Of a stretch of 11,428 bases of DNA, positions 3,391 to 11,428 are shown piece after piece. The notes beneath the pieces are model-generated. The model worked only from the letters and a program-made list of their open reading frames with translations, was not told the DNA's origin and did not search any database. The first letter of the stretch is position 1. Every line of letters starts with the position of its first letter. A program made the position numbers and the translations under genes. This stretch comes from Planctomycetaceae bacterium (GTDB lineage: Bacteria; Planctomycetota; Planctomycetia; Pirellulales; Thermoguttaceae). The stretch is taken from positions 1-11,428 of the forward strand of contig JAIRLW010000392.1 in assembly GCA_031259095.1 (NCBI GenBank), in the 5' to 3' direction.

Positions 3391-3503
3391 ATCTTCTGGA
3401 AATCCTCTCACTATTTTTCTTCTGTTTTTATGATTACATTCCTCAAATTCCACAATAATCTGAAAAATTTTTCGGAAATCTGTTAAAAAAGAAATTTTCT
3501 GGA

Positions 3504-3532
3504 TTGACAATTTTTCTAGTTTGTCGTAAAAT
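3504..3532 (+). promoter_or_regulatory. Sigma-70-like promoter of the DUF1559 locus
   Basis: A perfect -35 TTGACA (3504-3509), an optimal 17-bp spacer and TAAAAT as -10 (3527-3532). Initiation near 3539 gives a leader of about 93 nt. It is the best promoter match in the window. Confidence 0.75.
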
Positions 3533-3546
3533 GTGAATTTGATTCG

Positions 3547-3594
3547 ATTGCGATCTGTTTTTTTACCGTTTGTTTGCGGTAAGCGAATCGCAAT
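3547..3594 (+). promoter_or_regulatory. Nested stem-loop in the DUF1559 mRNA leader
   Basis: The outer arms ATTGCGAT (3547-3554) and ATCGCAAT (3587-3594) are perfectly complementary. Inside them TTACCG (3563-3568) pairs with CGGTAA (3577-3582) around an 8-base loop. GATTCG (3541-3546) can alternatively pair with CGAATC (3584-3589), so two conformations compete. The structure sits between the promoter and the Shine-Dalgarno and could affect translation or mRNA stability. I recognise no known riboswitch class. Confidence 0.5.
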
Positions 3595-3618
3595 GATTTC
3601 AGTAAAACCTTAGAAAAT

Positions 3619-3624
3619 AAGGAG
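3619..3624 (+). promoter_or_regulatory. Strong Shine-Dalgarno for the ATG at 3632
   Basis: AAGGAG lies 7 bases before the ATG at 3632. It is the only good ribosome binding site ahead of the DUF1559 frame, which makes this ATG, not the TTG at 3765, the likely true start. Confidence 0.75.
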
Positions 3625-3631
3625 TATCACG

Positions 3632-3727
3632 ATGAAAAATGTCGTAAAATGTTTGATTGGATTTTTCGTGAAATTATGGGTGAAAAATTCGATGTTAAAA
3701 TGGGCAAGACAGGGGGGGGGGGGCTAG
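3632..3727 (+). CDS. 31-codon leader ORF running into a G12 tract; probable 5' end of the DUF1559 gene
   Basis: The ORF starts at ATG 3632 behind a strong Shine-Dalgarno and encodes a basic, hydrophobic peptide ([12 protein letters not shown]...) ending in Gln and four Gly before TAG at 3725-3727. Codons 27-31 read through the 12-G run. If the run had 11 G (or 14), the frame would avoid this TAG and continue, with no stop, through basic residues into the DUF1559 frame. That would make a protein of about 478 residues with the prepilin cleavage site near residue 63. So this is most likely the detached first exon-like part of the next gene, put out of frame by tract length, not an independent peptide. 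A translated attenuator-type leader peptide is the alternative. Confidence 0.55.
3712..3723 (+). repeat. Homopolymeric tract of 12 G
   Basis: Twelve consecutive G lie inside the start region of the DUF1559 gene, in a genome region below 50% GC. Such tracts change length by slipped-strand mispairing. Three frames are possible downstream: 12 G gives a 31-codon peptide, 11 or 14 G the DUF1559 protein, and 10 or 13 G a different short product. It is also a classic site for sequencing or assembly error. Confidence 0.85.
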
Positions 3728-3764
3728 ATGTAGAGAAAAGGCAAGAATTGAGCGTGAAAAGTGT

Positions 3765-5069
3765 TTGGTTTTCCAACGTTTTTCCGCAAAATTCTCAACT
3801 CTTCGTCCCTCTTTGTTTGGCTTTACGTTGGTCGAACTTCTGGTGGTGATTGCGATTATCGGGATGTTAATCGCTCTTCTGTTGCCGGCGGTGCAGGCGG
3901 CACGTGCGGCGGCACAGCGGATGCAGTGTTCCAACCATCTCAAGCAACTTGGGATTGCGATTCACACGTTTCACAGCGCCCACAATGTTATTCCGCCTTA
4001 TGGTTTTCACGACCGACTAAACGATCCAGCAGATACCAATTCTTACCTATATAGGCTTTCCCCATTTGGTCCGTTGTGTCCGTTTATCGAACAGACGGCA
4101 CGATTTGATGAATACGCCGCGACAAACTATCAATTAGATGGCGACAGCATGAGCACTACAAACTGGACAAATCTCGGTAAACCGTTGTGTTTTCTCGGTT
4201 CTATCAACGGATTGTTGTGTCCTTCGGATGCTGTTGGAAACAATATCTCTTATCCCTACGGTAATAATGCCACCAATCCTGGAGCAAGAAGTTGGGACGA
4301 ACATCGGCGGACGTTGACAAGTTACAAATTTTCCGGTGCGGATTATCCTCCCCATGAGGCCAATGGAACGCGTCGGAAATATAATTATGACCGGACGCCG
4401 TTCTGTTTTATTCCTGAAGGAACAAAAAGTCTTTCACAAAGTTATTCATTTGCTTCGGTAAGCGATGGTCTGAGTAATACCATTTTTATGAGCGAGCGGG
4501 GAATGTGTGACGAACAGGTAATGAATCGGACTCAAGGCGGTATGTTGGCAAATGTCCTCACTGCCGGCAGTTGGATTAGTAGCGAAACAGGAAGTTACTT
4601 TACCGGATCATTGTCAACTGTTATGGCTGCTGCTACCGGTAATCAATATATTACCACTGGAACATATACTGACAGCGGATCACGTTACACAGTTGCCTCT
4701 GGAACAAGAATGGGGGCATCAGATTATATGACAAACCGAGGTGACGCTGCTTTTTGCGAAAAACCTATCTCAACCCGTTTCTATACCATTGTTCCGCCGA
4801 ATGGACCATCGTGTCTTGTAGGCGAGTTGAGTGATGGTCACAACGGGCTTTTGCTGACAGCGAACTCCTATCATACCGGCGGCGTCAATGTCGTTAAAGG
4901 CGATGGTGCGGTGAGTTTTATCAGCGATACGATTAATAATCTCTCTCCCAACACAGCGGCAACCGTGGATGTTGCGGGCGACCCAAGATTACGAAACGGC
5001 GAATCGCTCTTCGGAGTTTGGGGTGCCTTAGGAACGATCAACGGCGGCGAGGCAAACACACAACCATAA
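3765..5069 (+). CDS. DUF1559 prepilin-type protein with H-X9-DG domain
   Basis: The open frame from TTG 3765 gives 434 residues. Residues 19-45 carry a type IV prepilin signal: G19 before F20, Glu at +5 (GFTLVELL), then a hydrophobic helix [17 protein letters not shown]. After it comes the DUF1559 start ([17 protein letters not shown]). Near the C-terminus [12 protein letters not shown] (H370, D380, G381) is the H-X9-DG motif. The family is hugely expanded in Planctomycetota; members are thought to be pseudopilin-like, membrane-tethered envelope proteins of unknown function, processed by a prepilin peptidase. TTG 3765 has no Shine-Dalgarno, while the frame is open upstream to 3699 without ATG or GTG. 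I therefore infer that the true start is ATG 3632 across the G tract. A terminator and a palindromic element follow the stop, then a lipoprotein gene of the usual partner type. Confidence 0.88.
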
Positions 5070-5217: not shown

Positions 5218-5256
5218 ATTCATAATCATTTTATTCAAAAACATTGAGAGGAAATG

Positions 5257-5754
5257 ATGTTACACAAAAATATTTTATCCTTTACGATAATTTTATTAAC
5301 GGCATTGTGTTTTGCCGGTTGCGCTCCTTCGTTACCGAAAGGAATGCCGCCGATCTATCCCTGCACAATTACGCTGACCCAAGAAGGCGTTCCTCTGAAA
5401 GGAGCAAGCGTTGCGCTTATTCCTGAAGATACAACGCTTAATTTTACGTTTGCAGGCACGACCACTTCTTCCGGAAACATTGAAATGTACTCGCATGGAA
5501 AATATCGCGGTATTCCCGCCGGAAAATATAAACTCGTTGTAACAAAAAAGGCGAATGAGATTCAAAACGAAAAAATATGGACAGTTTCGTTGGTTGATGT
5601 AAAATATACTAATCCTGATACATCGCCGTTACAGGTTGATATTGCCAAGAAAAAAAACGAATTTACCTTTGAACTTGGTCAATCCGTAAAAATACAAATA
5701 TCGCCGGCACAAACATTAAAGCAGTATTACGGAACGCCTGACGAAGATAAATAA
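5257..5754 (+). CDS. Small lipoprotein with transthyretin/carboxypeptidase-regulatory-like domain
   Basis: A 165-residue exported lipoprotein. Residues 1-21 are a type II signal peptide: MLHK, a hydrophobic core and FAG before the predicted lipidated C22. Residues 36-97 look like one beta-sandwich of the carboxypeptidase-regulatory/transthyretin kind: a strand (CTITLTQEG), PLKGASVALIPED, AGTTTSSGNIEM, then IPAGKYKLVVTK. A second part ends with TSPLQVDI and a Phe-rich strand. Such lipoproteins often sit directly after DUF1559 genes in Planctomycetota, which suggests a shared envelope role, but the function is unknown. GAGAGGA at 5246-5252 lies 4 bases before ATG 5257; the ATG at 5254 is too close to it. 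A terminator lies between this gene and the DUF1559 gene, and I see no convincing promoter of its own. Confidence 0.75.
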   Translation: MLHKNILSFTIILLTALCFAGCAPSLPKGMPPIYPCTITLTQEGVPLKGASVALIPEDTTLNFTFAGTTTSSGNIEMYSHGKYRGIPAGKYKLVVTKKANEIQNEKIWTVSLVDVKYTNPDTSPLQVDIAKKKNEFTFELGQSVKIQISPAQTLKQYYGTPDEDK

Positions 5755-7330: not shown

Positions 7331-10300
7331 ATGACCGAAAAAAAAACTAATCGACTGTTCTTATCGCAATTAATCTCTCTTCCGGAGAACAAAATAACTG
7401 CGAATACCGTTACAGCCGGCGGTAAAAAATTAGGGCTGAAAAGAGTAAGATCATGGCTAAGAAAAACTATTGTAACGGGAATCTTAGCAAGTTCAACGGT
7501 TGTTTGTGAACCGTCTGTTTGGGCGGGCGATATCAACATCACCAATGGACGTACCCGTACCGGTCAATCCCGCGGATCATTGGCAACCAATCCGTACTAT
7601 GATAATGGTACGCCGGGCAATCCCGGTAATTGGTCGCACACTGATCGCTGGTTTGGACATAGTGACGCTGATAACGCTTTAGTGTACATCAACAGCGCCA
7701 ACGGCGGAACTGTTCGTGTTACCTCGCCGGATAACAGAGCCTCTGATAATTACGAATATTCCGCCAGCAAATATGCCACCTTTTGGTCTCACAGTTATTG
7801 GGGACCGCAATATGAGATGGCAGACCATGTCTATAATAATGTGTCGCCCAGTCTGTCACAAAACGTTACAATTACAAATGCAACAACGCCGACTACGTTA
7901 GTAACAGATTGGGATCCTGCCGAGCAAACTGCTGCTTCGACGGCTTACCGAGCTACTCCATTCACTATTACTACCGTGAATAAAACGAGCGGCAGTACCG
8001 GAGAACTCCAATTAGGAATCAATAATTTTCACATCACCAATTTTACCGCTCAAGCCAATAGCGGAACATTGAGTGTTGGAAATTACGGGGGAGGGAAACT
8101 GACCACAGGAACGCTGCTCTCTCAGAATGTTACACTTAACGGCGGAACCGGCGCTGCCGGAACGATAGGTAACAATTTTTCCGATGCACGATCAACCTTT
8201 ACGTTTCATAGTGCAACGACCAATAACACCTGGACAATCACTTCATTCGCTTCCAACGCGGCTAACGGTTTCAATAGCTCCGGAATCATGAATGTTCAGA
8301 GCGATACAACATTGAACAATACTACATTTATAACCGATCAGACCGGTCAATTAAATGTAACTGGTTTTTTGAGAGTAAACGGTAACGCAACTCTCAATAT
8401 TGAAAATCAAGGATCGGTTAATGTAACAAGTACGTTCTACGCCGGAAAAGAAGCCGCCGGAGCAGCAACATCAACCTACCTCAATTTGGATAACGGTCAA
8501 ATTATCAGTCAGAATAGCGCCATTTTAGGACAACAGAATAATGATACGGTAAGCGCTGTTATGAAAGGCGGTAGTCAATGGAATAATACCGGTACTTTTG
8601 TTGTAGCGCAAAATAGCACGAACACGAAGTTATCGGTTGAAAGCGCTGCCAATCTGACCTCGACTGGTTTTATCAGTGTTGGTCAAAATGACGCTTCCAA
8701 TGGAACGTTGGATGTGAGCGGCGGCAGTACCGTACGATCAACCGCTGGAAATATTTATGTTGCACACAATGCCGGCGCAACAGGAACGGTCAATGCCGAT
8801 GGGACGGGAACAAATGTTATTGCCAATGAGAATATCTTTGTTGCCAATATGGACAGGACCACCGGAACTTTCAACGCCAAGAACGGCGCAACAATTACCA
8901 CAACAACAGGAAGTATTTATGTTGCCAATGGCAGCAAATTGACCGGAAACGTTACCGGAATTTTCAATGCCGATAACGCAAACGTTACTGCTGCGCAAAA
9001 TATTGAGATTGCGTCGGGTGTTGAATCAAATGGAACGTTTACCGCTGATAACAGCTCTGCCGTTAAGGCGGCAGCAGGGCATATTACTGTTGCCAATTCC
9101 ACCAATTCCACAGGAGATTTATTGGTCAAAAACAGATCAACGATGAGCGCAGGAACTTATATTGACGTTGCGATGTCATCCGGTTCCACTGGAACAATCA
9201 CTGCCGACGGCGGAGGAACCGACGCAACAATTACCGCAACAGATGGTCGCTTTATTCTCGGCGGTTCCGGTCACGGAACAATGGACGTACTGGGAAAAGG
9301 TAAAATTTTCATTAAAGACGCTGGAAATAATACGCCGGACGCCGGAAACGCTTATTTCGGCAACCTCGATTCAGGTTACGGAAAAGGAACGGTAACCGAT
9401 GAAGATTCTTTATTTGAAGTTGATCACAATTTAATTGTCGGAAATTCCGGAACCGGTTTATTGTACGTTAATAATAAAGGTAAGGTTAGCGTCGGCGGTC
9501 AGCATATTATCGCCAATAAACCTAATTCCTTTGGCCGTGATACCGTGAACGGTTACGGTACAACATTGGATATTGTCGGCGATTTAATCGTTGGAAATGA
9601 AGGTCGAGCCGGAGGATATTACCATTATATCGGCGTCGGTTTTAATGGAGGTTACGGAAAAGATCCGACAAGCAAGGGAACTCCGCCAGGCGCCGGTTGG
9701 TATGGTTCAAATAACCTAAACTTAACACCGGCAGATGTTGGCTGGAATGCCGTTGAACAGAATTCGCCGGGTTTTGCGGTTGTGGCGGGCGGAGTTGCCA
9801 ATGTTACCGGTAACGCTTTTGCCGGTCAAAACAGAAATGGTTACGCTTACATGCTTGTTGACAATATTGATAACAGTTCAGGAACCGGCAATTCGACTTT
9901 AAACGTTACTGGAAATTTCACGGTTGCCGACGCCGGCGAAGCCTATCTTCGTGTTATTAACGGCGGTATCACCGATGTTACGGGAAACATGATCATCGGT
10001 AATCAAGGTCAAGACATGAATTATGCGAACAACGGAAAAGTTGGGCATGGTACGGTTCGGGTAAGCGGTACGAATAACGGCGATGCAACGTTAAATGTGG
10101 GCGGCGATCTGATCGCCGGAAATCACGCCGGATCGCAAGGTTTTCTGTACGTTCATGAAAGCGGAAAAGTCAATGTTACCGGAAATCATATCATTGGAAA
10201 CGAAACCGGCAGCTTCGGACGCGATCATCTTGATGGTTCCGGTTCGGAATTAAAAGTTACAAAAGAATTGCATGTCGGTAGAGACGGCAAAGCCGGAGGA

Positions 10301-11428
10301 GAATACGAATATCGTATCGACGGTTCCAATGCCGATCCTAATGTTTGGTTTGATTCGCCGAATCTAACGCTTGAACCGGGAACACAATCCGGCGTAACGC
10401 GACCTTCCGGTATTGACGGAAGCCGTGATATTGGAAATAGTCTTACAAGTCTGACATGGAATGACATTGTCAAGAATGCGCCGGGACTGGCGTTGACTGC
10501 CGGTGCGCAAGGAACCGCTCAAAATATCTTTGCCGGAACGAATCAAGGAAGTTTCAGTTACATTTTAATCGACGACAAAACAAATCTCAACAACACTCAT
10601 TCGTCCTTAAAAGCGGAAAACAATATGACGATTGCCGATTACGGCGTTGCTTATACTCGTGTTCTTAACGGCGGATCACTGCTTGTCGGTACTAATGTAA
10701 CGGATTCGCTGACTATCGGTCAATCCGCCGGTAGTCAGGGAACATTGCGGATCGGCGATACAACCGGCGGCAGTATTAAAAGCGTTGTTTCTGTTACAGG
10801 AACGCTCGTTACTTCAGGAAACGGAAGCAGCGGCAATATTGCGGAAGGTTATTTGTACGCTAACAACGCAAGTACGACGCAAGTTATCGGCAATCATATT
10901 GTTGCGCAAGGTCAATACAGTTTCGGACGCGACCACTTTAACGGTAACGGCTCCATGCTGCAAGTGGTCAGCGGTCAGGCAACCGATAAAACAACGATTG
11001 CCGACAACGGATATGCGGGCGGACGTTATCGTTACATTCTGGGAGGAGGAAACGCCAATGATCCGACGGTTCGTCAAACGGAATTTAGTAACAACGGTAA
11101 CGGTAAATGGTTCGATTCCGCTAATTTGTTGTTGGAACCGGATCAGGCAACCGCAGGCGATAACATTAATTATCCCGCGCTCACATGGGATCATGTTCGC
11201 AATAATTCGCCGGGTTTTGCGCTGACTGCCGGAGCAAAGGCAATCACGAATGACAGTGTTGTTGCGAACAGTTCAAGCAGTTACGGTTATATCCTGCTTG
11301 ATAACGCCGACAACGATTCACCATCGACAGCCAATCGTAGTTCATGGACGATTACCGGCGCAAACAATGCCAATCTCGTACTCGGTAACGCCGGAGACGC
11401 TTATGCCCGCGTGATTAACGGAAGTTTG
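7331..11428 (+). CDS. Giant repeat-rich beta-solenoid surface protein (3' end outside window)
   Basis: The frame is open from ATG 7331 to the window edge, 1366 codons without a stop; GGAG at 7319-7322 is 8 bases upstream. Residues 1-65 look like an export signal with a very long basic N-region (RVRSWLRK at 38-45), a hydrophobic stretch and a cleavage site after A65 (SVWA-GD). Residues 66 to about 420 are Gly/Asn/Thr-rich beta structure. Residues 421-664 are nine rungs of about 27 residues. Residues 719 onward hold three long repeats of about 230. Phrases such as DLIVGNEG, LIVGNSGTGLLYV and VNGYGTTLDIVG resemble T5SS/PEP-CTERM-associated repeats, which form beta-helices in autotransporter passengers. 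A surface adhesin or structural layer protein is inferred; no enzyme motif is seen. The anchor (autotransporter barrel, PEP-CTERM or other) must lie beyond the window. Confidence 0.87.
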   Translation, partial: MTEKKTNRLFLSQLISLPENKITANTVTAGGKKLGLKRVRSWLRKTIVTGILASSTVVCEPSVWAGDINITNGRTRTGQSRGSLATNPYYDNGTPGNPGNWSHTDRWFGHSDADNALVYINSANGGTVRVTSPDNRASDNYEYSASKYATFWSHSYWGPQYEMADHVYNNVSPSLSQNVTITNATTPTTLVTDWDPAEQTAASTAYRATPFTITTVNKTSGSTGELQLGINNFHITNFTAQANSGTLSVGNYGGGKLTTGTLLSQNVTLNGGTGAAGTIGNNFSDARSTFTFHSATTNNTWTITSFASNAANGFNSSGIMNVQSDTTLNNTTFITDQTGQLNVTGFLRVNGNATLNIENQGSVNVTSTFYAGKEAAGAATSTYLNLDNGQIISQNSAILGQQNNDTVSAVMKGGSQWNNTGTFVVAQNSTNTKLSVESAANLTSTGFISVGQNDASNGTLDVSGGSTVRSTAGNIYVAHNAGATGTVNADGTGTNVIANENIFVANMDRTTGTFNAKNGATITTTTGSIYVANGSKLTGNVTGIFNADNANVTAAQNIEIASGVESNGTFTADNSSAVKAAAGHITVANSTNSTGDLLVKNRSTMSAGTYIDVAMSSGSTGTITADGGGTDATITATDGRFILGGSGHGTMDVLGKGKIFIKDAGNNTPDAGNAYFGNLDSGYGKGTVTDEDSLFEVDHNLIVGNSGTGLLYVNNKGKVSVGGQHIIANKPNSFGRDTVNGYGTTLDIVGDLIVGNEGRAGGYYHYIGVGFNGGYGKDPTSKGTPPGAGWYGSNNLNLTPADVGWNAVEQNSPGFAVVAGGVANVTGNAFAGQNRNGYAYMLVDNIDNSSGTGNSTLNVTGNFTVADAGEAYLRVINGGITDVTGNMIIGNQGQDMNYANNGKVGHGTVRVSGTNNGDATLNVGGDLIAGNHAGSQGFLYVHESGKVNVTGNHIIGNETGSFGRDHLDGSGSELKVTKELHVGRDGKAGGEYEYRIDGSNADPNVWFDSPNLTLEPGTQSGVTRPSGIDGSRDIGNSLTSLTWNDIVKNAPGLALTAGAQGTAQNIFAGTNQGSFSYILIDDKTNLNNTHSSLKAENNMTIADYGVAYTRVLNGGSLLVGTNVTDSLTIGQSAGSQGTLRIGDTTGGSIKSVVSVTGTLVTSGNGSSGNIAEGYLYANNASTTQVIGNHIVAQGQYSFGRDHFNGNGSMLQVVSGQATDKTTIADNGYAGGRYRYILGGGNANDPTVRQTEFSNNGNGKWFDSANLLLEPDQATAGDNINYPALTWDHVRNNSPGFALTAGAKAITNDSVVANSSSSYGYILLDNADNDSPSTANRSSWTITGANNANLVLGNAGDAYARVINGSL
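8591..9322 (+). repeat. Nine short beta-helix rungs inside the giant protein
   Basis: Nine consecutive units of 25-29 codons (residues 421-664). The shared pattern is G-x-I-x-V-A-x-N, about five variable residues, G-T, a short hydrophobic strand, Asn/Asp-Gly-(Ala/Ser) and a final Val/Ile strand before the next unit. Examples of unit starts are GTFVVAQN, GFISVGQN, GNIYVAHN and GSIYVANG. One unit equals one turn of a right-handed beta-helix in related proteins. Sequence identity between units is low, so the duplications are old. Confidence 0.7.
9485..10168 (+). repeat. Long tandem repeat 1 of the giant protein (228 codons)
   Basis: The unit begins VSVGGQHIIANKPNSFGRD and contains, in order: GDLIVGNEGRAGG, a Trp-containing insert, NSPGFAVVAG, YAYMLVDNID, VADAGEAYLRVINGG and GSQGFLYVHESGK. 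The same landmarks recur in the two following units, with differing inserts after the AGG motif. Confidence 0.75.
10169..10876 (+). repeat. Long tandem repeat 2 of the giant protein (236 codons)
   Basis: The unit begins VNVTGNHIIGNETGSFGRDH. It repeats the landmarks of unit 1: KELHVGRDGKAGGEYEYR, WFDSPNLTLEPG, LTWNDIVKNAPGLALTAGA, FSYILIDD, IADYGVAYTRVLNGGS and GYLYANNAS. Unit 2 shares the WFDS...L.LEP and LTW segments more closely with unit 3 than with unit 1. Confidence 0.75.
10877..11428 (+). repeat. Long tandem repeat 3 of the giant protein (cut by window end)
   Basis: The unit begins TQVIGNHIVAQGQYSFGRDH and continues GYAGGRYRYILGG, WFDSANLLLEPD, LTWDHVRNNSPGFALTAGA, YGYILLDNAD and LGNAGDAYARVINGS up to the last base. 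More units may follow outside the window. An 18-bp stretch at 11204-11221 is identical to 9761-9778 in unit 1. Confidence 0.75.

Follow-up and report, generated by a model that had tools for sequence, protein, structure and literature searches.

Can a run of G decide whether a DUF1559 protein is translated? The question arises from a locus of an uncultured planctomycete (Planctomycetaceae bacterium, GCA_031259095.1), in which exactly 12 G at positions 3712-3723 lie between an ATG leader and the prepilin motif of a DUF1559 frame. The initial annotation took this arrangement for a possible phase-variation layout. All positions refer to the window, the whole 11,428-nt stretch analysed, which is positions 1 to 11,428 of contig JAIRLW010000392.1. 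Assuming independent bases, 12-base G or C runs are expected about 0.0002 times per window and about 0.07 times per 3.84 Mb.

All features of the locus are on the + strand. The promoter of a repeated header, TTGACA-N17-TAAAAT, occupies 3504-3532, about 180-210 nt 5' of the tract; it had been called perfect, which is right for the -35 element and slightly too strong for the -10 element, where five of six positions match. The Shine-Dalgarno sequence AAGGAG (3619-3624) stands 7 nt 5' of ATG 3632 and is followed by the leader (3632-3711), whose final codon is finished by the first G of the tract. As annotated, translation from this ATG meets the 12 G and then a stop: the frame spans 31 residues and ends at TAG 3725-3727. 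The post-tract segment (3724-3818) is open in the DUF1559 frame, as judged from stop counts over 63 loci, and leads into a prepilin-type N-terminus and DUF1559 body (3819-5069, stop included). The body matched the PF07596 profile with an E-value of 4.3e-41 and 142.2 bits, against a curated cut-off of 23.3, which places it in the DUF1559 family. The N-terminus contains GFTLVELL and scored 20.8 bits with the N_methyl profile, slightly under the cut-off of 21.2; geopilin and PilA N-termini matched it weakly (best E 5.3e-07).

The DUF1559 frame has no stop back through the G tract as far as a TAA inside TGTTAAAAT. It had been described as lacking an ATG or GTG start, and the only start listed between tract and motif is indeed TTG 3765. 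In the computed translation, tracts of 8, 11 or 14 G fuse the leader and DUF1559 frames with no stop up to the motif. The initial annotation had named 11 and 14 and a product of about 478 residues, in agreement with the 478 aa that the coordinates give for 11 G. With 12 G, the window locus is OFF (+1). Its leader of 63 residues by coordinates is as long as had been remarked; this length is not general, and leaders are shorter in the sampled loci of G028 and in many of those of G141, two genomes from other genera, where some are short (e.g. MKKLLENVKIGGGGCLCCSKAAFTLVELL). A small lipoprotein-like gene follows at 5254-5754. Further downstream, a long, repetitive, exported-looking ORF (7331-11428) runs off the window end, and a Pfam search of this ORF gave no match. 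A separate contig, L423 (G000:C565 end), stops within a leader and is 99% identical to window 3500-3647; it is a second copy of the window header or a strain variant.

Next, we consider how widely this arrangement recurs. The assembly that holds the window (653 contigs, 78% complete) contains 44 PF07596 matches and 34 runs of 9 or more G; 21 of these runs lie within 330 nt upstream of a prepilin motif on the same strand, compared to 0.06 expected. A congener, G018 (90% complete), was surveyed with 150 of its 152 PF07596 matches listed. Of its 88 tracts, 56 are followed within 300 nt by one of the listed matches on the same strand, in 47 cases at a distance of 174-178 nt; 10 tract-gene pairs have opposite strands, and none of the 88 tracts lies within 300 nt downstream of a listed match. 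Such tract families in the window's own genome, G018 and relatives rule out a lone oddity.

A motif-plus-tract pattern with up to three mismatches was present in 20 of the 21 genomes of the genus, the window's own included, with a maximum of 98 places (G012); the reversed pattern gave 0 to 3 matches, so genomes with one or two are indistinguishable from this control. G009, alone among the 21 congeners, has no run of 9 G despite DNA matching the window DUF1559 locus. The named relatives, MAGs of 'Planctomycetaceae bacterium', are presumably of termite gut origin, judging from their isolate names. A second pattern matched 57 of the 119 genomes in the family, representing 14 of its 40 genera, with the highest number in G141 (128), and six such matches checked from genera g17 and g58 were all in genes other than DUF1559. 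We sampled 30 distinct tracts each from G141 and G028, drawn from the first 30 loci listed of 127 and 48, respectively; a prepilin motif followed within 330 nt in 24 of the G141 tracts and 17 of the G028 tracts. All seven bodies sampled from G141, G028 and two more loci of the family search matched PF07596. The search of related genomes proposed in the initial annotation thus recovered many paralogs with G runs behind Shine-Dalgarno-backed ATG leaders, and extended them to two further genera. Among 30 tract loci from eight family or order genomes, including G028, a motif with an open frame was found only at L222 (G028); at L235 (G059), the prepilin motif is present but behind a stop. Loci outside the own genome, G018, G141 and G028 were picked as DNA or pattern matches and are a non-random set, and outside the own genome, G018 and the Pfam samples the DUF1559-like call is from the prepilin motif alone.

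If translation passes through the tract, the segment behind it should be open in one frame. Over the 63 loci of the own genome and G018 in which tract and motif are 50 nt or more apart, a post-tract stop was present in the DUF1559 frame at 2 loci, compared to 56 and 63 for the other frames, and shuffled post-tract segments were open about 15% of the time. Codon-position bias agrees, although weakly (p 0.07 for the leader, 0.045 for the post-tract segment). The openness of the leader is itself no test, because the leader frame was chosen as open. Translation starting downstream of the tract was rejected as a candidate, a Shine-Dalgarno-backed start being found there in only 2 of 78 tract loci (own genome and G018). 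Public protein predictions include in-frame products (P0006, P0122-P0124). In the window type, the string beside the tract, TGTTAAAATRGG, falls in a different frame and gives MLKW. Its variants in other genera fit the peptide V-K-[ILMV]-G; some matches are antisense, in the poly-C leaders that precede other genes. One candidate reading of this string is an internal extended -10 promoter.

To follow the phases of these loci, we compiled 166 distinct tract loci, 141 with a Shine-Dalgarno-ATG leader open to the tract and 139 also with an open post-tract segment. The phase count excluded the 25 loci without a recognised leader, some of them cut by contig ends, and the two with a post-tract stop; L050, which has lost its ATG, was not entered. 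Of the 139 loci, 30 were ON, 90 were +1 (one G too long) and 19 were +2 (two too long, or one too short), with lengths from 9 to 15 G and 12 as the commonest. The corresponding ON/+1/+2 counts were 5/5/13 in G141 and 5/10/0 in G028, together 10/15/13 of 38 loci. Pooling gave 176 leader loci with 40 ON, 104 +1 and 32 +2, with L222, common to both sets, counted once. L425, a further own-genome copy outside these counts, has 8 G and is in frame up to the contig end. The spread over the phases is uneven (chi-square p 2e-14, a value inflated because the loci share ancestry). Simple neutral slippage does not predict such uneven phases, with a +1 excess in the window genus and in G028, and the +2 excess in G141 argues against one common rule.

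These counts bear on the reading in which DNA length is no switch, and a 12-G gene yields a constant full-length fraction because RNA polymerase slips, or the ribosome shifts frame, on the G run. The +1 excess of the 139 loci recurs in G028, whose tracts most often have 11 G and would mostly be ON at 10 or 13. As that reading would also favour, 12 G is found at 0 of the 20 loci among the 139 that have other ON lengths, compared to 77 of 119. However, all three phases are present in both sets, rather than a single fixed offset, and the 40 ON loci of the pooled set are in frame at the DNA level already. In G141, moreover, +2 is the phase in excess (13 of 23), and 12 G is the length of 16 of the 23 tracts, spread across all three ON classes. 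We consider this reading unlikely. A fixed equilibrium length of 12 was rejected on the same 0 of 20 loci; in its favour, all 10 ON-10/13 loci and 3 of 9 ON-9/12 loci of G141 have 12 G. Three factors could each contribute to the phase excess: selection that keeps OFF as the default, a mutational preference for lengths of 11-12, and RNA-level correction.

Alternatively, the lengths might be assembly or sequencing errors, with a true length that is always in frame. The genomes are draft MAGs and homopolymers are error-prone; many contigs end at tracts, so individual tract lengths may be off. Against this, 12 G is the commonest length in several separate MAGs in which other loci have 9, 10, 11, 13, 14 or 15, and 164 of the 166 loci, which come from at least 15 assemblies, have 8-15 G (the other two have 18 and 22). 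Error, which the initial annotation had raised for the window tract, is a very improbable account of it.

Orthologs allow tract lengths to be compared between species, and 148 of the 166 loci had enough body for this comparison. Five cross-species pairs with 87-89% identical body DNA had tracts of 11/13, 13/12, 12/11, 13/12 and 15/12 G, the body overlap being just 189-216 nt in four pairs and 502 nt in one. The sixth pair, the window and its G014 ortholog (74% identity over the whole query), had 12/12; the G014 ortholog adjoins the same downstream lipoprotein-like gene. Lengths were thus unequal in five of six cross-species pairs, and equal (12/12) in one close within-genome body pair (86%). 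According to the initial annotation, homologues with interrupted, in-frame tracts and no length variation would speak against switching. Interrupted tracts do occur in relatives, L123 in frame and L122 out of frame; length variation is plain nonetheless. Recurrence, the presence of all three phases, the open post-tract frame and the unequal ortholog pairs together favour the proposed phase-variation layout, as far as genome sequences can indicate it. The loci share three of the features by which contingency loci are recognised: a simple repeat in the 5' part of the frame, a frame change with one unit, and length variation among homologues.

The header upstream of the tract is itself a recurrent module. 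Of the 102 tract loci preceded by 150 nt or more of sequence, 67 have a promoter score of at least 10/12 upstream of the ATG, compared to 7 after one shuffle. The 80-nt leaders of L170 and L174 are identical, and their posts are 68% alike; conversely, the 98-nt posts of L061 and L064 are identical, and their leaders are 58% alike in a gapped comparison. In gapped comparisons over five genomes, 79 of 91 leaders and 85 of 91 posts had their nearest relative within their own genome, as did 32 of 91 segments covering the 240 nt that begin at the motif; 26% would be expected from the counts. An ungapped version gave same-genome nearest relatives for 87% of leaders, 95% of posts and 46% of helix segments. 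For bodies the nearest relative was in the same genome in 30 of 98 cases, and 22 more had no blastn neighbour. We read the leader and post-tract patterns as probable gene conversion, or recent copying, over diverging bodies.

This mosaic structure raises the possibility that the tract loci are mainly silent donors, with the G run as a recombination point for the exchange of leaders and bodies, as in pilin antigenic variation. The Neisseria pilE/pilS system is alike in being a pilin-like multigene family with mosaic sequence. Its silent pilS donors are not known to have a promoter or a translation start. The planctomycete loci differ, with Shine-Dalgarno and ATG in 141 of 166, a promoter in most of those scored, and leader and post-tract segment as the shuffled part. 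About a quarter are in frame, and a donor would not need a frame open back to the tract. The two mosaic pairs and the same-genome relatives do favour donation, as do some degenerate copies, with a degenerate prepilin motif in L163 and early stops in L412 and L417. We regard a mainly silent-donor role as unlikely; it may be true alongside a switch.

Taken together, these genomic patterns are in our view very probably best explained by slipped-strand translational phase variation in a mostly OFF repertoire of pseudopilins. The header would supply promoter, Shine-Dalgarno and ATG, and a ribosome would enter the leader and reach the G tract. Only tract lengths that keep the frame would allow reading on into the prepilin-like DUF1559 protein. 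Slipped-strand mispairing would add or remove G and so turn a locus ON or OFF; the window locus, assembled OFF, would be ON after the loss of one G. With tens of such switches per genome, most of them OFF, each cell would produce a changing, small pseudopilin subset. The sequences themselves show the anatomy, the phases, the recurrence, the length variation among paralogs and between species, and the mosaic leaders and post-tract segments; slippage in living cells, surface display and a selective benefit are what we infer.

G or C runs were also observed in genes other than DUF1559. In L348 (G095:C27), a 12-G run near 1510 falls within a type I restriction HsdS gene (PF01420), and another HsdS-like ORF adjoins this gene; by its sequence, this is likely a phase-variable restriction system in the window's family. 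L352, L353 and L354, on the reverse strand, are long ORFs with a C run in the leader and the DNA string GTTAAAATGCGGGG in antisense; PPPRILT is found in L353 and L354, and L353 is an adhesin-like gene with LamG and PATR domains and a poly-C leader. HsdS and adhesins are classical targets of phase variation, so their tracts support the mechanism in this family. At L347 (G036:C104), a 525-aa ORF that has no Pfam match and whose N-terminus resembles a signal peptide carries a G10 in frame in its leader. In the own genome, G9 runs follow AAAATAGGYAAAA.GTGTTTTGT at L082 and L084; the next 450 nt contain no prepilin motif, and the two loci appear to form a second repeated tract context. L081 (G000:C204) has an 18-G run, at 1817, within a 265-codon ORF that continues through the run without a stop.

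Poly-G slipped-strand switching of pilus and surface genes is already known, as described in passages of PMC5231331, PMC5953494 and PMC6321876. According to excerpts of the first two, Neisseria pilC likewise has a G tract within the frame of a pilus-related surface protein, and a change of one G turns pilC1 off; pilC is present as one or two genes per genome, whereas the planctomycete, in another phylum, has tens of DUF1559 paralogs. In the sections of PMC6321876 that describe the Campylobacter phasome, poly-G tracts are likewise mostly intragenic and the ON share is nearer to neutral drift in the larger genome set. The same sections give C. jejuni a median of 20 tracts per genome, with 9 and 10 G commonest, whereas the planctomycete has 11-12 G, largely in one protein family. 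Neisseria opa is similar in that a single surface protein family occupies several loci, each of them switched by a separate repeat (CTTCT); it differs in using a pentamer, with up to 12 loci in the part of PMC5953494 that lists them, compared to a homopolymer at no fewer than 56 loci in G018. In the literature searched we found no report of phase variation for DUF1559 or planctomycetes, and a term search of a 2025 review (PMC11868660) returned no mention of Planctomycetes. The mechanism is thus familiar from Neisseria and Campylobacter, and the DUF1559 or planctomycete case is without an earlier report in that literature.

DUF1559 families can be large: portions of PMC10632474 describe it as the biggest paralog group of Planctopirus limnophila (68, of unknown function), and portions of PMC2754498 give 74 genes in Rhodopirellula baltica, termed a solute-binding family. 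The sets described here match the size of Neisseria phasomes, for which an extract of PMC5953494 gives maxima of 54 and 47 and a range of 36-82 per genome in N. lactamica: they number at least 56 in G018, and in G141 there may be about a hundred, provided that the sampled fraction of 24/30 holds for its 127 tracts. It is an evenly balanced possibility that two diversity systems are combined, with pseudopilin loci numbering from tens to around a hundred in each genome under independent, mostly OFF switches, and with leaders and post-tract segments homogenised within the genome and shuffled at the tract, each cell showing a small, random and evolving DUF1559 subset. The mix of ON and OFF states could be counted from long reads. 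If so many DUF1559 members do switch, they would probably be surface or phage-exposed proteins under diversifying pressure.
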